The translations under genes were made by a program, and so were the position numbers. A stretch of DNA of 64,000 nt, from positions 115,976-179,975 of IMG/VR virus record IMGVR_UViG_3300026488_000012. One strand, given 5' to 3'. The notes under the pieces were generated by a model. The model was not told the DNA's origin. It ran no database searches and saw only the letters and a program-made list of their open reading frames with translations. The stretch comes from a virus. Each line of letters begins with the position of its first letter. The stretch's first letter is position 1. Shown in pieces: positions 5,978-64,000 of this stretch.

Positions 5978-6052
5978 TTTTTAATTTTAACTATATATAT
6001 TGTTATCTTACTAAAATGCAATAAAACTACAAGATTAGGAGGTAAATATGAG
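5978..6052 (+). repeat. 75-bp leader identical to that of the 10227 gene (copy 1)
   Basis: Bases 5978-6052 are identical to 10157-10231. The repeat covers the promoter-like motif (6003-6025), the untranslated leader, the ribosome site TTAGGAGG and the first five bases of the coding region. Both copies precede RNA polymerase subunit genes. Confidence 0.9.
6003..6025 (+). promoter_or_regulatory. Promoter-like motif of RNA polymerase beta-C gene
   Basis: TTATCTTACTAAAATGCAAT is a variant of the recurring motif. The same sequence lies at 10182-10204, and a looser form at 22727. Confidence 0.6.
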
Positions 6053-8288: not shown

Positions 8289-8298
8289 ATCCCTCTCT
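8277..8298 (+). terminator. Terminator of beta-C gene
   Basis: AGAGAGGG (8277-8284) pairs with CCCTCTCT (8291-8298); the stop codon TAA is in the loop. A T-rich tract follows. Confidence 0.8.
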
Positions 8299-8416
8299 TG
8301 TTATTTCAAATTTTTTCATTTATGTATTACTAAACTGTAACAAAACAAAAAACCTCTCTACCAAGTACTGCTCCTCTGGTGTGAAGGAGAAGGTCGAGAC
8401 TAACCCCGGTGGTATA
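8293..8416 (+). repeat. 124-bp direct repeat, copy 1 (other copy at 63875-63998)
   Basis: The end of a terminator, a promoter motif and the first two thirds of the structured leader RNA are identical over 124 bases to the sequence at the right edge of the window. Confidence 0.9.
8319..8340 (+). promoter_or_regulatory. Promoter-like motif upstream of structured leader RNA
   Basis: TATGTATTACTAAACTGTAA is identical to the copy at 63901-63922. The structured RNA starts about 10 bases downstream. Confidence 0.65.
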
Positions 8417-8471
8417 AGGGGAGTCAGAAGACCTTCTCGACGAAGAGGAGACGTGGAACGGTAGAGAGGTT
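8351..8471 (+). ncRNA. Structured leader RNA, copy 1
   Basis: Nested perfect helices are visible. P1 is AACCTCTCTACC with GGTAGAGAGGTT (12 bp). P2 is CTCCTCT with AGAGGAG. P3 is GAGAAGGTC with GACCTTCTC (9 bp). P4 is GACT and CCCC with GGGG and AGTC, interrupted by a two-base bulge. Copy 2 at 26702 keeps the same helices with different bases, so pairing has covaried, while joining segments AGTACTG, AGAA, GACGA and GTGGAA stay the same. AGTA opposite GAA at the P1/P2 junction looks like a loop-E motif. It ends 14 bases before the next start codon, so it is a leader RNA that could control expression. I cannot match it to a known family. Confidence 0.8.
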
Positions 8472-8485
8472 AAAAGGAGTAGATA

Positions 8486-8992
8486 ATGAAAAAAATTAAA
8501 GTGGAGTACGATTATAAAGAAATTTCTTCCCCTGATATTGACGTTATAAAGGAGATAAGAATTGGCGAGAAAGTAGTCTCGCCAATAGCAGTAAAAGGAG
8601 TAGAATCCATTAGTCCCAACAGATTATTTAGCAATGTAACTAGTGCAAGAGCAATAGTTCTTGCTTATCTTTTTGAGGATGAGATAAATAATTTGTTGCC
8701 TTACCCTATGATGATTTTCGATAATAGAGGAACAAATGTGGTCGCTACGGAAAGAGAGGAAGATGAATTTCTCTCTTATGATTATGTAGATATGACAGGG
8801 GTTAATTGTGGAAGAAGTCAACCGACTTATAAGATATTTGAGTTAACCGGGGACCTAATGACCGATGTTTATCACATCATTAACCCTCCGGTGAGGATAG
8901 ATTATATCTATCCTAAGTTTAGAGCGGATATTCTTTATTTAGGGAATCAGGCGTTCGCTCTACTTGATGTAGAATTTATAAAACCATATTAA
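8486..8992 (+). CDS. Unknown protein behind structured leader RNA (168 aa)
   Basis: ATG 8486 follows AAAAGGAG right after helix P1 of the leader RNA. The protein has a hydrophobic stretch near residues 55-75 and conserved-looking Gly, Asn and Pro positions, but no recognised domain. The coding sequence is rich in perfect inverted repeats, for example 8561-8586 (9 bp), 8895-8913 (8 bp) and a nested set around 8845-8893. Its leader type is shared with the gene at 26834 and an unseen gene to the right of the window. Confidence 0.75.
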   Translation: MKKIKVEYDYKEISSPDIDVIKEIRIGEKVVSPIAVKGVESISPNRLFSNVTSARAIVLAYLFEDEINNLLPYPMMIFDNRGTNVVATEREEDEFLSYDYVDMTGVNCGRSQPTYKIFELTGDLMTDVYHIINPPVRIDYIYPKFRADILYLGNQAFALLDVEFIKPY

Positions 8993-10156: not shown

Positions 10157-10231
10157 TTTTTAATTTTAACTATATATATTGTTATCTTACTAAAATGCAA
10201 TAAAACTACAAGATTAGGAGGTAAATATGAG
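10157..10231 (+). repeat. 75-bp leader identical to that of the 6048 gene (copy 2)
   Basis: This is the second copy of the 75-base identical promoter and leader block (see 5978-6052). Confidence 0.9.
10182..10204 (+). promoter_or_regulatory. Promoter-like motif of RNA polymerase beta-prime gene
   Basis: TTATCTTACTAAAATGCAAT is identical to the motif before the beta-C gene at 6048. Confidence 0.6.
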
Positions 10232-26653: not shown

Positions 26654-26680
26654 TTATATATTACTAAGATACGTGATTAA
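26654..26680 (+). promoter_or_regulatory. Promoter-like motif before structured leader RNA copy 2
   Basis: TTATATATTACTAAGATACG matches the recurring motif; the structured RNA follows about 25 bases downstream. Confidence 0.6.
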
Positions 26681-26701
26681 AAAAAAACCCGTAAGTCCTT
26701 T

Positions 26702-26816
26702 TTGAAAGAGTACTGCTCTCCTGGAGAAGGAGGAGACTACGACTTATCCCGTTGTTCTGTGGGAAGTCAGAAAGTCTCCTCGACGAAGGAGAGATGTGGA
26801 AAATCAAGAAGGCAGG
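26702..26816 (+). ncRNA. Structured leader RNA, copy 2
   Basis: The folding seen at 8351 is repeated with other bases. P1 is CCTTTTTGA with TCAAGAAGG. P2 is CTCTCCT with AGGAGAG. P3 is GAGGAGACT with AGTCTCCTC (9 bp). P4 is GACT and TCCC with GGGA and AGTC, interrupted by the same two-base bulge. Joining segments AGTACTG, AGAA, GACGA and GTGGAA are unchanged. Helix bases differ while pairing is kept, which is direct evidence of RNA structure under selection. It ends shortly before AAAAGGAG of the next gene. Confidence 0.8.
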
Positions 26817-26833
26817 GGTAAAAGGAGCCAAAA

Positions 26834-29020
26834 ATGGCTAAATTAATAGTGAAAAGAGATAGAATTGTATTTAAAAAAGAAACTATCTTAGAAAATAGAT
26901 CTTTGACAATTAAAGGTCTAAAAAGATTTCTCAACAAGAGAAATCTTAAAATAAAAGAAAAAGATTTAAGCGCAGCATATGCTGCGTATACTGGAGAAAA
27001 TTCTCCAGTTAAAGTTCCTGTTATAACAGGGAAAAGAAGAAAAGGAGTTGTTTCTAGGGAAGAAAGAATCCCTAGAAACACTCCTGTTAAAAGTCTAAGG
27101 GGGGATATCCTCCCTAAAAAAGTCTCTTTAAAAGAGAGACTTAAAGCGGCTGTGAAAAAAGCAAAAGAAGACGGTCATAGATTCGCAGCCGTTAGAACCG
27201 CATACGGTCTTATCGAAGTTCGTAGAAGAACGAGCTTTGATGAGACCTATGAAGTTTTTATGGAGGTCTTTAAAGAAAAAAGGGCTGAAATACTAGCGTA
27301 TGAAAAAGCGCTAAGTGAGGACTTGTCCCATCCTCACTTAGCGAAACATTATATTAAAGAGTTTGGGGACAAAATTATCCCATACTTTAAGCTGGTTGAT
27401 ACAATGGCTTTATCCTACGGTATGAATCCAAGGAACGTGTGGGATTCATGCGGAGTATGGGGAATATCTCCTGACCTATTCCTATTCAAGATTGGTGACA
27501 AAGAACATCTTCACAACATAAAAGTTGTGAAGATGTTCGTGGAGATAGCCCTAGAAACTTTAAGAGTTAGGGGGAGGGTGGATCGTATTCCAAGTATATT
27601 CCACCCATCAGTATTTTTCGAACAAAGAGAAAGAATGAAAGAATACAAAGAAAAAATTGATTCTAATATAGTCTATCCAGGGATCGAAGAGTATGAAATA
27701 TTTATCTCGATCTTCTGGAGACTATATAAAAAATACGGAGTAGACGGAATTCCGTCACTACGCATTACCCAGTTAATGAACTGGGATGAAACCTGGGATG
27801 AATTACTGGGTTGGAAAGACGAGGATCTATTACCTCTAACGCTAATGTTAATAGATTCGGACTTCTACTCCATCGATAAAGTTAAAACCGGTGAGGGTAG
27901 AAGAGGCGGCTATTATAAGATAAATTTCAGAAAACTAAATAACTGGAAGAAACTTAGCAAGAGGGAAAAAGCTAAGTTTCTTCCAGCGCCATTAGCTTGG
28001 AGACTCCTATTCAATAGGAAAGCTCCAGATGGAATCGAATTTCGTGATCCTAATCCTGTTAACTTCACGAGAGCTTCTCAAAGGGCTTTTCGTGAGTTAG
28101 CAGAAATCATCAAACGCGACGACAGGGGATATTTTGCTGCTAACATTAAAGCAGCGTATCACCTTAGTCTCGCGTTTGGTGATATGAATACAGTGAAAAG
28201 ATGGCTAAACGCACTAGGATTGAAAGTGGATGCGCTAGGCATTCACGACGCGTTCGTAAACGCCCACCATTTCTTAAAGCTTAAATATAAAGAAAAATGG
28301 GCGGCGCTCCTAATCAAATTCCCTGGGCTCAGAAAAGTTACATGGGCTTTTAGGGAGTTTGAGAGGGAGTTTGGACGCGTAGCAACTAAAACTGAAATCA
28401 GTAGCTATGCCGCGACTAAAAAATATAGGAATGTAAAATTAAAAGATGTCGCGGAGATAGCTGCTGAGTTAAAATTATCTCAGAGGGAATTTGAGGATTA
28501 TCAAAACTTTTTCCTCAAAACCCCTGAGAAAAAATCTACTATGTTACCAAATGTGGTTGTCGAGAAAGGTGAATATAAATTTAGAAAACTCGATGACCAC
28601 GATAAAATAGGCCCGTTCTTAGGGTTGTTGACAGACTGTTGTCAACACCTCCATAACGCAGGTGACACATGTGCTAAGGCGGGATGGAGGGACCCTGAGA
28701 GCGGGTTCTATGTCGTCGAGAAAGACGGCAAAATAGTTGCACAATCTTGGGCGTGGAGAGGTAAAAAAGGCGAGCTTTGCTTTGACTCTATAGAAGGGCT
28801 CGGTAATGTTAATGTTAATATAATTGCCGAGCTATATAAAGAAGCAGCTCGTCAGTTAGTCGGCAAAATGGGGATCACTCGCGTGACTGTGGGTGATACC
28901 TCATATGGCTTAACTGAGGATGTAAAACAAATCCTCGGTGGAGTCAACCGCGAGTCAGCGGTCATGATCAAAAAGGTGTCTTATACAGACGCTGATGATC
29001 AGTGGCTCTTAGCCGACTAA
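26834..29020 (+). CDS. Large unknown protein; coding sequence is a chain of inverted repeats
   Basis: This is a 728-residue basic protein. Residues 1-130 are Lys/Arg-rich, the middle is helical and rich in Trp, and the C-terminal 150 residues hold a compact domain: LGLLTDCCQHLHNAGDTCAKAGW, then GFYVVEKDGKIVAQSWAWRG and LCFDSIEGLG, then a long helix and strand. This end resembles PcfJ-like or GNAT-like folds seen in mobile elements, but I am not sure. G+C looks higher than in neighbours. The gene contains dozens of perfect inverted repeats in a row, for example 26923-26947 (10 bp), 27309-27343 (12 bp), 27503-27538 (15 bp) and 27942-27985 (16 bp). It has the structured leader RNA and its own promoter. 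Confidence 0.75.
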   Translation: MAKLIVKRDRIVFKKETILENRSLTIKGLKRFLNKRNLKIKEKDLSAAYAAYTGENSPVKVPVITGKRRKGVVSREERIPRNTPVKSLRGDILPKKVSLKERLKAAVKKAKEDGHRFAAVRTAYGLIEVRRRTSFDETYEVFMEVFKEKRAEILAYEKALSEDLSHPHLAKHYIKEFGDKIIPYFKLVDTMALSYGMNPRNVWDSCGVWGISPDLFLFKIGDKEHLHNIKVVKMFVEIALETLRVRGRVDRIPSIFHPSVFFEQRERMKEYKEKIDSNIVYPGIEEYEIFISIFWRLYKKYGVDGIPSLRITQLMNWDETWDELLGWKDEDLLPLTLMLIDSDFYSIDKVKTGEGRRGGYYKINFRKLNNWKKLSKREKAKFLPAPLAWRLLFNRKAPDGIEFRDPNPVNFTRASQRAFRELAEIIKRDDRGYFAANIKAAYHLSLAFGDMNTVKRWLNALGLKVDALGIHDAFVNAHHFLKLKYKEKWAALLIKFPGLRKVTWAFREFEREFGRVATKTEISSYAATKKYRNVKLKDVAEIAAELKLSQREFEDYQNFFLKTPEKKSTMLPNVVVEKGEYKFRKLDDHDKIGPFLGLLTDCCQHLHNAGDTCAKAGWRDPESGFYVVEKDGKIVAQSWAWRGKKGELCFDSIEGLGNVNVNIIAELYKEAARQLVGKMGITRVTVGDTSYGLTEDVKQILGGVNRESAVMIKKVSYTDADDQWLLAD

Positions 29021-30354: not shown

Positions 30355-31420
30355 CGAGGTTCCTTTCTATTTCAAATACTTGGTATAAAAGGTTTTTATT
30401 TCTATCGTCTGTTAATACTGTTTTATACTTGTCGTAAACTTCATTAACTATTTTTAGCATTTCTCTTTGACCAGGTAACTCCGTAGTCGAAATAAATATT
30501 AAGGTGTCGTCTTTGCTATTGTTTATACTTTCTTCTATACTGTTTTTTAGAAATCTGATATTGTTATACAGGTTTAGAGTAAATATATCGAACAGATAAC
30601 CTCTTATAGTAGGTATAATTGCTGTAAATGCATGATAGTTTATTTCTTTTAGACTATCTATAAGAAGTTTTCTAATCTTGGTTAATTCAGAATTGAATCC
30701 TGATTTATTAAATAGTGAGTCAGTATACATAAGGTCTGTTATCATTGAGTTTAAAACAATCGAACTTTTGTAATCATCGTAGAAATTATTAACAAATTCG
30801 TATACTAGTAATAGTTTATCAGTGTCTACATCGTCGTAATTCAGGTAAGATGTATCTGTTTCGTTAGCTAATTTAACTACCATATCCTTTAGAACATTTA
30901 AGAATGTACCAGTATAATCTTTAATCAGTTTGTAATATTCATCAACGTTTAAATCAGGTATATAGTAACTGAATATTCTATACATAATTTCGAATTTATC
31001 CAAATAATCATTGTTAAACAAATCAGAGAAATACAGAGCGTCTATGTCTGACATAGTTTTTAGAAAATAAACACATTCTAAAATATTGACGAAGAAATTA
31101 AAATGTTCAGAGTAAGATTCATTTACTAAATCGCTATCTTCTATTTTAATACCAATAGACTCCAGTAGTTTAATCGTATGTGATATTAATAGTTCCATAA
31201 ATAATAGGTTAGCTTCTGGTTGGTAGATATTACTATGGTCTAAATTTATAAAATTGTAAACATCTAAAGCATAATCTCCATATCCTAATAAATCAAATGT
31301 TCTAATAAGTCTTCTTATATTAAAGACAGTTAACGGAGTGAAGTTGTTTGTTATATATTCCTCCAGTTCATTGTCTATAAAATCATTTTCTAATTCTGAG
31401 TATTCCACGACTTTTTCCAT
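30347..31420 (-). CDS. Unknown protein co-transcribed with second beta-prime part (357 aa)
   Basis: This all-helical, acidic 357-residue protein overlaps the beta-prime-like gene by 8 bases (30347-30354), so the two are translated from one transcript. AAGGA precedes its ATG. No family is recognised. Because of the strict coupling, it may be a partner subunit or specificity factor of the second RNA polymerase; this is inference only. A gap of 81 bases separates it from the divergent gene at 31502. Confidence 0.7.
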   Translation of the reverse strand: MEKVVEYSELENDFIDNELEEYITNNFTPLTVFNIRRLIRTFDLLGYGDYALDVYNFINLDHSNIYQPEANLLFMELLISHTIKLLESIGIKIEDSDLVNESYSEHFNFFVNILECVYFLKTMSDIDALYFSDLFNNDYLDKFEIMYRIFSYYIPDLNVDEYYKLIKDYTGTFLNVLKDMVVKLANETDTSYLNYDDVDTDKLLLVYEFVNNFYDDYKSSIVLNSMITDLMYTDSLFNKSGFNSELTKIRKLLIDSLKEINYHAFTAIIPTIRGYLFDIFTLNLYNNIRFLKNSIEESINNSKDDTLIFISTTELPGQREMLKIVNEVYDKYKTVLTDDRNKNLLYQVFEIERNLDE

Positions 31421-31501
31421 TTAAAAATCCTTTTTATGGGTTTGAATCATTTGATGTCGACCCTAGTAAATAAAGGAATAAGTTAGTAAAGGAGAAAAAA
31501 A

Positions 31502-32047
31502 ATGAGTAAAAAAGAAGTTAAAAAAGTAGCAAAAGAAAATAAAGAAAGCAGATGGGAGGATGTAAGAGAAACTTATGAAAATGCTGTTAAGATATATCTG
31601 GTCTCTGTGAAAGCTATGACAGATGTCTATAATAAGTATCTACCTATTATAGAAAAACATCCAGAACTTAAGAAATTGTTAGACGGTGGTGCTAAGACGT
31701 TGGATGGTATAAGAGTATTGATTAATAAAACTGCTCTAAGTCACATAACAGAAGTTAAAGATGATAGTGATGAAAAGACATTCACGATAGGTGATAAAGC
31801 GTATACATTTAGAAAGGGTGTAATAGACGAGAATAACGATAATGACGTAGAGATAGCAGTTAGAGCTATGTTAGCTTATCAACAGCTTATATCTAGCATA
31901 TACGCAGTAGTTAAGAACACTATGACTGTATTTCTATCTGAGGTTGAAAAGATTCTTAATAGTATAGATGATAATAAAATTAAAGAAGAATATGGTAAAA
32001 TGTTAGAAGTAGATAAACAAGAATTTATAGAGACAGCTAATAACTAA
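31502..32047 (+). CDS. Unknown helical protein (181 aa)
   Basis: ATG 31502 follows AAAGGAG. The 181-residue protein is helical with one beta hairpin near residues 90-105 (EKTFTIGDKAYTFRKG). It leads a run of five plus-strand genes (31502-35495) that look like virion or tail-assembly genes. No specific function is recognised. Confidence 0.7.
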   Translation: MSKKEVKKVAKENKESRWEDVRETYENAVKIYLVSVKAMTDVYNKYLPIIEKHPELKKLLDGGAKTLDGIRVLINKTALSHITEVKDDSDEKTFTIGDKAYTFRKGVIDENNDNDVEIAVRAMLAYQQLISSIYAVVKNTMTVFLSEVEKILNSIDDNKIKEEYGKMLEVDKQEFIETANN

Positions 32048-32064
32048 TAAAAAAGGAGTAACTA

Positions 32065-33558
32065 ATGGACAATGTTAAAAAAGATAATGAGAATGTTACT
32101 CAGGTAGTAAAGGAGAAATTACTACCTGATGTAGCTAAAGAGAGACTTAAAAAGTTAAAAGACATATATAAAGACGTCAAAGATGAGTTATTAGTTGTTT
32201 TACCTGGTGAGTTATATAAAAAATTAGAATCATTTGTAGAGAATTTCGAGTATTTAGAAGAAGATGATTTTGCTAATATACCTGAAGATTTACAAATACT
32301 ATTAATTAAATTACCAGAGTTTATGGAATCTGTTAAATATAAAGATGTAACATCTAAACCTCTAACAGAAGAGGTTAATAATAAGATAGTAAAAGATGAT
32401 AAAGAAATAGGTATCAAACATCCTAAAATTAAATCCGGTAAAAGTAAACAATCTTTCCTATTAGAGTTACAAGAGGGAGTAGGTTTAGGTAAAATTACTA
32501 AAATTCCATTATGGAATAGCGGGTTTTGGATTACTATAAAACCGCCTAAGACTGAAGATATAGTAAATCTTCAGCTTAAGTTAAGTGAAGAAATGGACCG
32601 TATAGCTTCACTCACTACGAATTTAGCATTTAGTAATATCACTACTGTGTTCCATAAAATCGTCTTTGAGTATGTTATGGAAAGGATAGCTGACAGTAGT
32701 TTAGATGTACCTAAAAAAGAGCTTATTAATTATATCTCGTTATTAGATTTAGATACTATTTTGTTAGGTGTATTGCAACAGGTTTACTATAATGGTTTTG
32801 ATCTTTATCTACCTTGTAAAAATAATTATAATACAGAAAAGGATGATGAGGTTAAAGTTAAGAACAAATGCAGCTACGTATTAGAAGCCAAGGTTGATTT
32901 ATCTAAATTACTATGGGTAGATATGAGTAAGATACCTGAAGAGGCTCTAGTTATAATAGCTAACTCCATGCCTAAATCTGTTACAGTAGCGGATATTAAA
33001 AAATACAAGTCTATACTTAACCGAGGTATAGATAATAGAGTTACACTGACTCTTAACAATGGGAAAACTATTAGAATGGATTTAGAAGTTCCTAATCTTA
33101 AAACGTACTTTAATGTAGGGGATATCTTCATACTTAAACTTAACAAAATCGTTAATGAACTTATGGAGAATGGAATATTAAAGAATGAGAAAGACAAAGC
33201 AGTGAATGTCGCTACCAAGACGTTGTTCCTGAGTATTTATAGTCATTTTGTAAAAGCTATTAAAAACGGAGATGTTGAGTTTACCGATAGAGATGTTATA
33301 AATGAAGCGTTAGAAATCATCTCTAGTAACAATAAAGATACTAATGAAATAATAGAAAAGATAAATAACTTCATTACTAAATCCTCTGTTACTACTATAG
33401 GGTTACCTAACTTCGTATGTCCGGTTTGTAAAGAGAAACAAGAAACAACTGATACATTTGAAAATATAGTTCCTTTAAATATGGTACTCTATTTTTTTAC
33501 TTTATGGACACACCGCTATATGAAATTACTGGAGGAAGAAAAAGAGAAACAAAAATAG
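32065..33558 (+). CDS. Putative baseplate-hub-type protein with zinc ribbon (497 aa)
   Basis: Residues 145-190 contain LPLWNSGFWITIKPP-like sequence (IPLWNSGFWITIKPPKTEDIV), a pattern I associate with T4 gp26-like baseplate proteins. The C-terminus has a Cys pair, FVCPVCKEKQ (about 451-460), the start of a short zinc-ribbon-like end. The first 130 residues are a charged helical extension. The next gene starts inside its last 55 bases, as in tail cassettes. Function call is tentative. Confidence 0.5.
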   Translation: MDNVKKDNENVTQVVKEKLLPDVAKERLKKLKDIYKDVKDELLVVLPGELYKKLESFVENFEYLEEDDFANIPEDLQILLIKLPEFMESVKYKDVTSKPLTEEVNNKIVKDDKEIGIKHPKIKSGKSKQSFLLELQEGVGLGKITKIPLWNSGFWITIKPPKTEDIVNLQLKLSEEMDRIASLTTNLAFSNITTVFHKIVFEYVMERIADSSLDVPKKELINYISLLDLDTILLGVLQQVYYNGFDLYLPCKNNYNTEKDDEVKVKNKCSYVLEAKVDLSKLLWVDMSKIPEEALVIIANSMPKSVTVADIKKYKSILNRGIDNRVTLTLNNGKTIRMDLEVPNLKTYFNVGDIFILKLNKIVNELMENGILKNEKDKAVNVATKTLFLSIYSHFVKAIKNGDVEFTDRDVINEALEIISSNNKDTNEIIEKINNFITKSSVTTIGLPNFVCPVCKEKQETTDTFENIVPLNMVLYFFTLWTHRYMKLLEEEKEKQK

Positions 33559-37482: not shown

Positions 37483-38478
37483 ATGGAAAAAATATTAAAA
37501 CTAAGATATACCCATAGAACTATTCATAATGAAACAGGGTTGTTTTACAACCCTAAAACTAAAGAGTTCGATATCGTCTGGACCGATCCAGACGGTATAT
37601 ATACGTTAAATGATAAGGTTATTCCAACAAAAATTAAAAGGTGCTGCGCAAGTGTTAAAGTTAGGGTAGAATTACCCGATGATTGGTTATATGTTGGGAA
37701 GGTGAAGAGACTGGATATTAATAGAGTTGCTTTTTACCATCCGAGTCTCAAAGACGATTTGGGTGGTTATTATACTGACTTTTTATTAATAAATATAAAA
37801 AATAACGTCGCATATGCTTTTAGCGGCGTTATATGTTCTCATACTGGGCTAAGCGGATACGCTGATGAAATAGATTTCACTCAGTACTTACTTACTGGTA
37901 GTGTTTATAAATCAGTGATTAAACATGAGAAAATTAGAATTGAAAAAGAAGGAGTATGTATAACATTCCCTCGTAAACCAGGAATTAGAAAAGAACTGTT
38001 AGCGTGTCTATATTATAGATTCGACTCGCTGGTTTACACAGGAAACGACAGAAGGAGACTGGGAGGGTTGTATAGTTTTGTGGATCGTACGACAAATAAG
38101 GTCCTTATAATAGATAATGTATTTAATCCAAAATATATATTAATTAAATCAGTCCACTCACTCGAAGAATACGAGTGGACTTTCCATTTATACAGAGATC
38201 AGGAATTACTCAAGAGGACCGGTCTCCCGTATAAATGGAAAGGAGATACCCTAATAATATATGATAAAGTGCCTGTAGCTATTAATAATACTACAAGTGT
38301 ATACGGGGATGAGTATATGCTCTGGAATAGAACTTGGGTTAACAGTATATCATTAATCGAGTCCATCGATAAAGAACTTATCGATGATTTGGAAGATTAC
38401 GCCAAAAAGCTCATGAGTTCAGGAAGTAATGAAACTACAGAAGATATAGAGGAAATTGAAGAAATTACAGAGGACTAG
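37483..38478 (+). CDS. Unknown protein with inverted-repeat-rich coding sequence (331 aa)
   Basis: ATG 37483 follows AAAAGGAG. The protein is beta-rich with many Tyr and Arg, ends in an acidic tail (residues 312-331, mostly E, D, T and I) and has no recognised motif. Like the 26834 gene, its coding sequence holds many perfect inverted repeats: 37536-37554 (8 bp), 37575-37594 (7 bp), 37973-38037 (9 bp), 38152-38180 (8 bp), 38184-38238 (10 bp), 38364-38386 (9 bp). It is a single-gene transcription unit. Confidence 0.75.
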   Translation: MEKILKLRYTHRTIHNETGLFYNPKTKEFDIVWTDPDGIYTLNDKVIPTKIKRCCASVKVRVELPDDWLYVGKVKRLDINRVAFYHPSLKDDLGGYYTDFLLINIKNNVAYAFSGVICSHTGLSGYADEIDFTQYLLTGSVYKSVIKHEKIRIEKEGVCITFPRKPGIRKELLACLYYRFDSLVYTGNDRRRLGGLYSFVDRTTNKVLIIDNVFNPKYILIKSVHSLEEYEWTFHLYRDQELLKRTGLPYKWKGDTLIIYDKVPVAINNTTSVYGDEYMLWNRTWVNSISLIESIDKELIDDLEDYAKKLMSSGSNETTEDIEEIEEITED

Positions 38479-58396: not shown

Positions 58397-58419
58397 AAAA
58401 ATAAGAAAAGGAGATGATG

Positions 58420-59055
58420 ATGAAATTTTTAGAGGACTTAGTATTAAATATTGTAGAAGGGAATTTGTTCCCTTCTAAAGAGGAGTTATTATATTCTAAG
58501 AAAAAACAAATGAGTGAAGAAGAGGTTATGGAGCTAATAGTTGGCGGTATTGTAAATAGAGATTTTATAACGGATTTCAGCTGGATGATGCCTACTGAAG
58601 ATAATATACAAAAACTGTATAAACTATTAAAAGGTAAGAAGGTACTGGAGATAAACGCTGGTACCGGATTAATCGCTAATAGATTAAATAAGTTAGGGAT
58701 TGATATAACTGCTACTGATAAAAGTTCTGAAAAATTCAACGAGGTAGCCGAGACCTTTAGGATACACACAGAAGGAAATATTCCTGTGATAGAAAAAGAT
58801 GCGTTATCAGCTATGAGTGAATTCGATTACGATGTTATATTAAGTATATGGCCTCCTTATAAGGACGACTATATGCATAAAGTTTTAGAGAAATTACCAA
58901 GAGGTAAGGAGCTTGTTGTGGTCGGTGAAGGAATGGGAGGCTGTGTGTCTAACGACGCATTCTGGACAATGTTAGAGTCTATGGAATATGATTTCATTCC
59001 TATAGACACTTGGCCTGGTATCCATGACGCAATATGGAGAGTTACTAAGGAGTAA
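58420..59055 (+). CDS. SAM-dependent methyltransferase (211 aa)
   Basis: Among ATG 58414, 58417 and 58420 the last has the best spacing to AAAGGAG. VLEINAGTGLIANRLN (about 76-91) is motif I for S-adenosylmethionine, ITATDKS is the acidic loop, and SIWPPY (around 146) stands where amino-methyltransferases have (D/N)PPY. The substrate cannot be read (DNA, protein or small molecule); short length without target-recognition domain makes a small-molecule or protein target possible. Perfect inverted repeat near the 5' end of the gene (AGAAGGGA with TCCCTTCT). Confidence 0.7.
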   Translation: MKFLEDLVLNIVEGNLFPSKEELLYSKKKQMSEEEVMELIVGGIVNRDFITDFSWMMPTEDNIQKLYKLLKGKKVLEINAGTGLIANRLNKLGIDITATDKSSEKFNEVAETFRIHTEGNIPVIEKDALSAMSEFDYDVILSIWPPYKDDYMHKVLEKLPRGKELVVVGEGMGGCVSNDAFWTMLESMEYDFIPIDTWPGIHDAIWRVTKE

Positions 59056-61998: not shown

Positions 61999-63075
61999 AT
62001 GGATAAAAGAAAATGTACACCAGGAGTATGTTTAGAAAAATGTTTGGAATGTAACAAAAAGGGACTAGGCTGTTGTGATACAGCTGTTCCTTTTAAAGAC
62101 GAGGAACTAGCAAAAGTTCATTTTGAAAATAGTCTTATAAGCGAAATGAGTGATGAGATACAGATAGTGAGAGGTGATGATAATTACTTATACGTGGTGA
62201 GTAAAGAAGATGTGACCGGTAGTAAAGTGGTTTTATCGGATAGACCTTGTGTTTTCTTCGACGGAGAAACATATAAATGTAAAATATATGATCACAGACC
62301 CGAAGCCTGTAGAAAGTATGGTGAAGTAAATAATCCTTGTATTTTTACAAATATAGACGTTGAGGATGTTAAAAACATTGAATTAGGAAAAGAAAAAATA
62401 AGAGACATCAAAATAGAAAGGATTCTATCTAAGCACAAGAATAGATTAGTGAGGTCATATTTGTCTCTCAAATTTCCTAAAATCAAGAAGTTTAGTAAAA
62501 AAGATTTGAAAAACATGAAAGAAGAGATGCTGTTATATCTTGTTATAAATGCTATTAATTTATTAGAGGACAAAGAACAAGGTAGTAGCGTTTGTCCAGA
62601 GTTGTTTGAATTTACATATAAATATCAATTAGTTATGATAAACAATACGCAGATATCTTCTATTAAATTAAAACAAATGAGTGCTAACCATGATGCTTTT
62701 AAAGGATTTGATAGAACCTATAATATCCTTAATAGGAAGTTCGTAATGAGAGACCCTATGTATCTCCAGATATTAGTAGGTAAACTCAAAAGAGTATTGA
62801 GCGGTGTAGAAGTATCAGAGATAAAAGAAATACCAAAAAATAGTGTTATAGGTAGAGTAGGTGAAGCTGTTGTTTTACTAGACTTATGGAAAACTAAGTA
62901 TAAGAACAAGTCCAATAGTTATAAGGGTATAATAAATGAGGACAATATATATAAACTAAAGAAATGGATTAATAAAGAGTTAGGAAGCGAGAGTTTAATA
63001 AATCCAGCAACAGGGTTTATTAAATTATACGAAAATGGTGAAAGAATTTACAAAGCTATATTAAAACAAAAATAA
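61999..63075 (+). CDS. YkgJ-like cysteine-cluster protein with large C-terminal part (358 aa)
   Basis: The N-terminal 120 residues carry a cysteine cluster: CxxxxC...C..C then CC (residues 6-27), later RPCVFFDGETYKCKIYDHRPEACRKYG (about 83-109), which is the YkgJ-type zinc/iron-chelating pattern (CxxF ... C-x-IYxxRPxxCR). In bacteria such proteins bind a metal cluster and may act on proteins. The rest (130-358) is basic and helical, not assigned. AAAAGGAG precedes the ATG. Two small genes follow in the same unit. Confidence 0.7.
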   Translation: MDKRKCTPGVCLEKCLECNKKGLGCCDTAVPFKDEELAKVHFENSLISEMSDEIQIVRGDDNYLYVVSKEDVTGSKVVLSDRPCVFFDGETYKCKIYDHRPEACRKYGEVNNPCIFTNIDVEDVKNIELGKEKIRDIKIERILSKHKNRLVRSYLSLKFPKIKKFSKKDLKNMKEEMLLYLVINAINLLEDKEQGSSVCPELFEFTYKYQLVMINNTQISSIKLKQMSANHDAFKGFDRTYNILNRKFVMRDPMYLQILVGKLKRVLSGVEVSEIKEIPKNSVIGRVGEAVVLLDLWKTKYKNKSNSYKGIINEDNIYKLKKWINKELGSESLINPATGFIKLYENGERIYKAILKQK

Positions 63076-63090
63076 TCGAAAAGGAACTAT

Positions 63091-63543
63091 ATGGAAAAAC
63101 ATACATTAAGGAATGAAAGAACGGGTAAAATCAGATATCTAGAAGATGTAGAAAGAATATACGAAGACGAATACCCGATTTATTATGCCTGGGCTATAGA
63201 ACTGGATTTTACTGTAAATAAGAAAAATATGAAATACTTCTATAAGACCATTAAAAGATACATGGTCGATGAGTATAGTATGTTTTCACATACAGTAATT
63301 GACGGTATTAAAATAATTGACTATGTTTTAGGTAATAAGTATAGAAAAATAGATTCTATACTTAGATATCAGAAAGCAATTAAGCATGATACTGATTATC
63401 CTGAGTTAGAAAGTGTTATTATACTTAATCTTATCGAAGAACCTGTTTTGGTAGAATACCTGGAGGACATAAAAACGATGATGGATGAAATCCTATACAA
63501 GATGAAGGATGTAGGATTAATAAATAAACTACAAGGAGGCTGA
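63091..63543 (+). CDS. Unknown protein (150 aa)
   Basis: AAAAGGA precedes ATG 63091. The protein is charged and helical with many Tyr, Asp and Lys (KYRKIDSILRYQKAIKHD near 96). It ends one base before the next gene, so they are coupled. No function recognised. Confidence 0.65.
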   Translation: MEKHTLRNERTGKIRYLEDVERIYEDEYPIYYAWAIELDFTVNKKNMKYFYKTIKRYMVDEYSMFSHTVIDGIKIIDYVLGNKYRKIDSILRYQKAIKHDTDYPELESVIILNLIEEPVLVEYLEDIKTMMDEILYKMKDVGLINKLQGG

Positions 63544-63544
63544 T

Positions 63545-63856
63545 ATGGATAAAAAAGTAGTTGGAGCAGATATTACTCTAGAGAGAGTTACGTTGGTAGA
63601 AAAGGTTAAATTAGATGGTAGACACAGGTTAATAGTTGCACATATAAAGGTAAAATTCACAGATAACGATGTTAAAAGTAGCTGGGTAGAATTGTACGAT
63701 GTTACTTATAGTAACCCTAAGTATGTAATGGAGCAACTTGGAAAACTTAAAAAACAATTAGAGGGAAATAAGTACATCTATAAAGGACCTAAGAAATTGA
63801 GATATGATATACTAAGAAGAATGTTTATAAATAACAGCAAGATAAAAGAACTGTAG
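63545..63856 (+). CDS. Unknown basic protein (103 aa)
   Basis: GGAGG precedes ATG 63545. The N-terminal half is beta-like (DITLERVTLVEKVKLDGRHR), the C-terminal half helical and basic. Not recognised. It ends directly before a perfect palindrome terminator. Confidence 0.6.
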   Translation: MDKKVVGADITLERVTLVEKVKLDGRHRLIVAHIKVKFTDNDVKSSWVELYDVTYSNPKYVMEQLGKLKKQLEGNKYIYKGPKKLRYDILRRMFINNSKIKEL

Positions 63857-63882
63857 CAAGAGAGTTGATATCAACTCTCTTG
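63857..63882 (+). terminator. Terminator, perfect 26-base palindrome
   Basis: CAAGAGAGTTGAT and its complement, one base after the stop codon; T-rich sequence follows. Confidence 0.85.
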
Positions 63883-63998
63883 TTATTTCAAATTTTTTCA
63901 TTTATGTATTACTAAACTGTAACAAAACAAAAAACCTCTCTACCAAGTACTGCTCCTCTGGTGTGAAGGAGAAGGTCGAGACTAACCCCGGTGGTATA
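63875..63998 (+). repeat. 124-bp direct repeat, copy 2 (see 8293-8416)
   Basis: Identical over 124 bases to the region before the 8486 gene. It starts in the terminator and includes a promoter motif and the first part of the structured leader RNA. Confidence 0.9.
63901..63922 (+). promoter_or_regulatory. Promoter-like motif before third structured RNA
   Basis: TATGTATTACTAAACTGTAA is identical to 8321-8340. Confidence 0.65.
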
Positions 63999-64000
63999 GG
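63933..64000 (+). ncRNA. Structured leader RNA, copy 3 (cut by window end)
   Basis: The 5' parts of P1, P2, P3 and P4 and the joining segments are the same as in copy 1. The pairing 3' parts lie outside the window. A gene should follow about 70 bases to the right. Confidence 0.75.

Follow-up and report, generated by a model that had tools for sequence, protein, structure and literature searches.

A repeated leader RNA accompanies hairpin-packed coding regions in a phage with a PhiKZ-type capsid protein

In the phage represented by the 179,975-nt IMG/VR virus record IMGVR_UViG_3300026488_000012, a structured leader RNA and hairpins packed into the coding regions behind it go together. The record is that of a DNA phage that carries genes for capsid, terminase and RNA polymerase proteins, and the window analysed here, the 64,000 nt at positions 115976-179975 of the record, encodes a PhiKZ-type major capsid protein as well as parts of a multisubunit RNA polymerase; positions in the whole record are called contig positions below. 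The leader occurs in five complete copies whose helices covary, the coding regions behind them are folded in excess, and the two features are associated. We infer that the benefit would be mRNA stability, with some nuclease or defence that would thereby be evaded, and we propose, tentatively and somewhat short of an even chance, that leader and coding hairpins protect a few phage mRNAs against decay or cleavage.

The leader copy ahead of the gene at window position 26834 (the index gene) lies at window 26697-26812 on the + strand (covariance-model match of 122 bits, E 2e-29). An earlier reading of the sequence alone had set the element at 26702-26816; it is real, with these slightly different bounds. 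The RNA forms one rod of about 117 nt built from four stacked helices, P1 to P4. In the index copy the internal loops are AGUACUG/AUGUGGAA, GG..GAAGG/GACGAAG and AGAA and the apical loop is GUUGUUCUGU; across the copies the loops stay constant (AGUACUG/AYGUGGAA, GG..GAAGG/GACGAAG, AGAA and an apical GUUGU) while the helices vary. The index leader folds at -47.3 kcal/mol compared to -31.0 +/- 3.4 kcal/mol in dinucleotide shuffles (z -4.8, 0/200), and all distinct copies lie far below their shuffles (z -4.8 to -6.1). Standard pairs occupy 95.3% of the pair cells in the four distinct copies, a share that falls to 43-52% once the partner is shifted by 1-3 columns. Compensatory change on both sides affects 15 of the 37 pairs, a count reached by none of 500 shuffles. 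Over these four distinct sequences only, covariation amounts to 0.536 against 0.254 when shuffled, G-U exchanges occur among the pairs, and RNAalifold, given no structure, returns the same fold. The helices are thus kept through compensatory change, as in a conserved structured RNA, and the earlier view that the two copies in the window share one fold with other helix sequences holds.

With the four distinct copies as its input, a covariance model finds five complete leaders in the 180-kb record (E about 5e-29 to 3e-33), at contig 1-117, 3116-3230, 62623-62740, 124328-124444 and 142672-142787. The last two correspond to window 8353-8469 and 26697-26812, and the other three lie outside the window; what had been described as a second copy is indeed a repeated element, but the count is five. 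Since four of the five matched sequences went into the model, the E-values serve for placement and count and are not independent support, which comes from the covariation. The copy at window 8353-8469 (+ strand; 135.9 bits, E 5e-33; fold z -6.1) is identical to the one ahead of contig gene 128-544, and the divergent leader at contig 62623 came to light when the upstream region of the gene ranked third for structure was inspected. In addition, an incomplete copy is found at the contig end (window 63935-64000, + strand; 46 bits, cut at its 3' side). The promoter and first leader half at window 8293-8416 (+ strand; 124 nt, repeat family D2) are identical to 63875-63998, so that promoter and leader have been copied together, either in a recent duplication or through gene conversion. 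At its two ends the record has the same 66 nt of leader sequence, apart from one indel, and, judging from these contig ends, the genome map probably closes inside the leader of contig gene 128-544.

Upstream of the index leader lies a promoter-like TATATATTAC (window 26655-26664, + strand), a predicted promoter based on its sequence and on repeat families D1 and D7, and the motif recurs ahead of many genes in the phage. The first leader helix begins 32 nt past it. The predicted fold of the index copy includes a possible outer helix beyond the common model, in which CCC at 26688-26690, 23 nt past the promoter-like motif, pairs with GGG at 26816-26818 (+ strand). The Shine-Dalgarno sequence AAAAGGAG is located just 3' of this possible helix, outside the rod and unpaired by it in the predicted fold; the leader therefore does not hide the ribosome-binding site, and neither an alternative terminator nor a hidden ribosome-binding site was seen in the leader by eye or in the minimum free energy (MFE) fold. 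Elsewhere in the window, a 75-nt identical repeat comprising promoter, 5' UTR and start codon (window 5978-6052 and 10157-10231) precedes two genes, one of 746 aa that contains an RNA polymerase Rpb2 domain and an uncharacterised one of 679 aa.

The index gene itself (window 26834-29020, + strand) encodes 728 aa and has a windowed MFE of -681 kcal/mol, as against -445 kcal/mol in synonymous-codon shuffles (z -16.8 in one window phase and -19.7 in another, 0/60 shuffles). About 50 local hairpins follow one another almost without a break along the 2.2 kb of its coding region, with perfect stems of up to 16 bp, and almost every 90-nt window of the gene is affected by the excess folding. An example is the hairpin at window 27943-27986 (+ strand), whose 16-bp perfect stem pairs CTGGAAGAAACTTAGC with GCTAAGTTTCTTCCAG. 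Sixteen base pairs is the longest perfect stem both here and in the homolog of phage contig G001 described below, and long fully paired duplexes are absent.

The link between leader and coding-region structure was assessed by taking all ORFs of 60 aa or more (168, called mechanically and without overlaps) and comparing their windowed MFE with that of shuffles that keep both protein and codon usage. The first genes behind the five leaders rank 1, 2, 3, 14 and 15 among the 168 by energy excess, and the index gene does have the most extreme hairpins, as had been claimed for it (rank 1, z about -17). Leader-led and other genes differ with an exact Mann-Whitney p of 1.1e-6, or 2.3e-5 without the index gene; this four-gene test carries some bias, as the leader of gene 62761 was noticed because the gene ranked third, the leaders of the other three having been found by sequence pattern before the ranking. 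All five genes fold beyond every synonymous shuffle (0/60 for the index gene, 0/200 for each of the other four), so the concern that further copies might precede ordinary genes is not borne out. The effect ranges from z -17 in the index gene to about -3 in the genes at contig 3247 and 124461, the latter of which lies behind the 8353 copy, encodes 168 aa (window 8486-8992, + strand; z -2.8 and -4.7, 0/200 shuffles) and contains 19 nt of inverted repeats compared to 2.5 expected (1/200 shuffles). The product of the gene behind the divergent leader, contig 62761-63609, belongs to the MYG1/UPF0160 family (Pfam E 1.6e-25). Strong coding structure is also found without this leader, namely in a 331-aa gene (contig 153458-154453, window 37483-38478), a methyltransferase-like gene (contig 174389-175030, window 58414-59055) and a paralog of the index gene at contig 30804-32729; the leader is thus not required and the two parts are separable. 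The sequence-only reading had suggested that leader and hairpins may form one control or packaging system for RNA: the association speaks for a link between them, while the structured genes without this leader and the modest z of about -3 in two leader-led genes speak against a strict version.

The index protein has no Pfam, PHROG or NCBIfam match. Its C-terminal domain, marked by an invariant CCQ and by a QSW..W motif, is modelled by AlphaFold2 with a pLDDT of 93, and the top PDB matches of the model are GNAT acyltransferases (E 1e-4, TM about 0.5, rmsd about 6 A), a similarity that Pfam and NCBIfam do not recognise in the sequence; the protein would represent an uncharacterised family whose C-terminal domain is GNAT-like. 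The paralog in the same phage is 39% identical over 378 aa and hyperstructured. The homolog in G001, a 659-aa gene whose overall identity of 45% rises to about 80% within the C-terminal domain, reaches z -19, is the sole hyperstructured ORF among 24 in 33 kb and lacks the home leader. Further homologs are ORF68L of the Microcystis phage MaMV-DC and the corresponding gene of MaMV-DH01 (z -8 and -12, respectively), as well as genes in prophages and bacterial genomes; other hyperstructured members are found in L122 and L124 (prophages according to the IMG/VR records L151 and L152) and in Microcystis-phage-like contigs. In MaMV-DC (KF356199, about 44-61 kb) several genes neighbouring ORF68L also show coding-region structure. 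Most members from Alphaproteobacteria, Clostridia, Obscuribacterales and Chloroflexi are not hyperstructured, with z mostly between -2.5 and +2.5, which rules out hyperstructure as a trait of the whole family and indicates that the protein itself does not impose the structure. One member at L137:2438-4462, on a 6-kb contig binned as Caldilineae, has z -16 at 67% G+C, and its neighbour genes have neither structure nor PHROG matches. The bacterial members L131, L138 and L144 combine the C-terminal domain with ankyrin or DUF4116 repeats. The structured members form two separate groups in the domain tree, and the family looks mobile between phages.

Across about 370 aligned codons in the 3' half of the index and G001 genes, 52.9% of the pairs are kept, compared to 52.8% in shuffles. 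Hairpins are therefore not conserved pair by pair, with the exception of a few helices such as GCTGCT/AGCAGC, which corresponds to GCGGCC/GGCCGC. As both genes are extreme in their folding even so, selection would act on being folded while the positions turn over; it appears that folding in general, and not one shape, is under selection.

To date the leader is an apparently undescribed structured RNA seen in one phage. Rfam 15 gives no match in the window at the gathering threshold, and permissive Rfam scans of both copies in the window return chance-level matches only, the best weak match over the leader itself being a microRNA model far below cut-off. In IMG/VR, a pattern of the 3' core yields 45 matches, all of them chance matches to coding sequence without AGTACTG upstream, a three-part pattern yields 14 matches, none scored by the covariance model, and a pattern of the apical half yields none. 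Covariance-model searches of eight related phage contigs (terminase relatives, G001 among them) find no copies, and neither does a core-motif scan of 96 kb of Microcystis phage, where a conserved hairpin adjoining the start codon was considered as a repeated leader and dismissed, since it occurs once. The leader has thus been found in this record only, by searches that may omit near-identical records. The G001 homolog has a leader of its own (L073:3331-3452), very stable (fold z -6.4) and of a different design, which is absent elsewhere in the records searched. Its apical loop starts CCCGUUGC, compared to CCCGUUGU in the home leader; a CCCGUUG apical loop common to both, being a single case, is suggestive only and was not accepted as a real link. 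Relatives without a gene of the 26834 type show moderate structure in small genes only, and no common leader was seen among them.

Several known systems resemble parts of this arrangement. Stabiliser hairpins at the 5' end are known in bacterial and phage mRNAs, e.g. ompA and the 5' structures of T4 mRNAs. These are likewise 5'-terminal structured leaders that leave the Shine-Dalgarno sequence free; the present leader differs in its length of about 117 nt, its four stacked helices, its conserved loops, its presence at five genes and its link to coding structure. Rfam cis-regulatory leaders and riboswitches share the combination of covarying helices and conserved unpaired loops, and none of them reaches its gathering score. 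Genome-scale ordered RNA structure (GORS), in its usual sense, characterises RNA virus genomes as wholes. The coding structure is akin to the GORS of some RNA viruses in folding that pervades the sequence and exceeds what composition and codon use would give, and in helix positions that turn over while the degree of folding stays: the energies exceed controls that keep protein and codons, the folding is spread over the whole length and the pairs are not conserved. It differs from GORS, a term in use e.g. in PMC6563262, in being restricted to individual genes, in belonging to a double-stranded DNA phage instead of the RNA genome that goes with GORS, and in the shared 5' leader. No description of leaders combined with hairpin-packed genes was found in the literature searched, which reached few subscription papers and preprints.

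How might such an arrangement serve the phage? The leader would act in cis as a 5' leader RNA common to five transcription units, a long rod directly downstream of a phage promoter that leaves the Shine-Dalgarno sequence free and may shield the mRNA 5' end from 5'-dependent decay. The coding regions would carry an ordered structure on the scale of whole genes, dense local hairpins chosen via synonymous codons, and this chain could remove the single-stranded sites needed by endoribonucleases, RNase toxins or guide RNAs. Together, the two would yield long-lived mRNAs shielded from cleavage or antisense pairing, and the turnover of specific pairs with extreme folding kept is as shielding predicts. 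Against a purely passive 5' block, the conserved loops (AGUACUG/GUGGAA, GACGAAG and the apical GUUGU) suggest that something binds the leader. The main rival builds on this and sees the leader as a regulatory operator akin to a riboswitch, where a phage or host protein or a ligand on the loops jointly controls how five accessory genes are translated or how their mRNAs decay, the coding structure being a separate property merely common in the same genes. The invariance of the internal-loop letters while the helices diverged, the resemblance of the AGUA/GAA internal loop to the bulged-G (loop E) motif, the five units readable as a regulon and the separability of coding structure from the leader are all in keeping with it. 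However, neither visual inspection nor the MFE fold reveals an expression platform, with the Shine-Dalgarno sequence free and no alternative terminator, and independence of the two parts does not predict their association (p = 1e-6); we regard an operator as unlikely and favour protection.

A further matter is whether the hairpins act as RNA or as DNA. The index gene shows an excess of -11.2 kcal per 100 nt in sense and -5.9 in antisense, and this roughly twofold difference favours the RNA level, as if G-U pairs mattered. Sense and antisense are equal in the G001 homolog, which is neutral because perfect Watson-Crick hairpins are symmetric, and antisense is larger in contig gene 128-544; RNA-level selection is not proved in every structured gene. 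The antisense folding of these two genes, the perfect inverted repeats of up to 16 bp and the apparent mobility of the family between phages are in keeping with hairpins that act or arise as DNA, be it through template-switching inverted repeats or as structure for replication or gene mobility. We judge this improbable: the hairpins are restricted to the coding strand of particular genes and strongest on the index sense strand, other genes in the same genomes, such as 23 of the 24 ORFs in G001, do without them, and the leader pairs show G-U exchanges. Slightly less probable still is a packaging or export tag, by which compact mRNAs would be taken into the virion or out of a phage nucleus, the hairpins making them compact and nuclease-proof. 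A small set of compact mRNAs with a common 5' tag in a phage with a PhiKZ-type capsid protein and multisubunit RNA polymerases would suit it, but a basic tag should be more widely shared than a leader missing from eight related contigs, including G001 with its hyperstructured gene; it is a similarly long shot that the phage marks and folds a handful of its mRNAs so that they travel in the virion or outlast a wholesale destruction of RNA in the infected cell. Least credible is a pacing of translation, in which hairpins slow the ribosomes and aid protein folding: they do fall within coding sequence and depend on the choice of synonymous codons, yet bacterial homologs of the same fold manage without them, and they occur everywhere instead of at domain borders.

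It is mainly in RNA viruses that coding regions with strong folding specific to certain genes are known. A few DNA-phage genes folded via synonymous codons, with the folding recurring in homologs across unrelated phages and missing from most bacterial ones, point to an as yet unnamed pressure on particular mRNAs, and in this phage the leader marks which genes belong together. As cultured Microcystis phages carry a hyperstructured homolog, the half-life and fold of its mRNA can be measured now.
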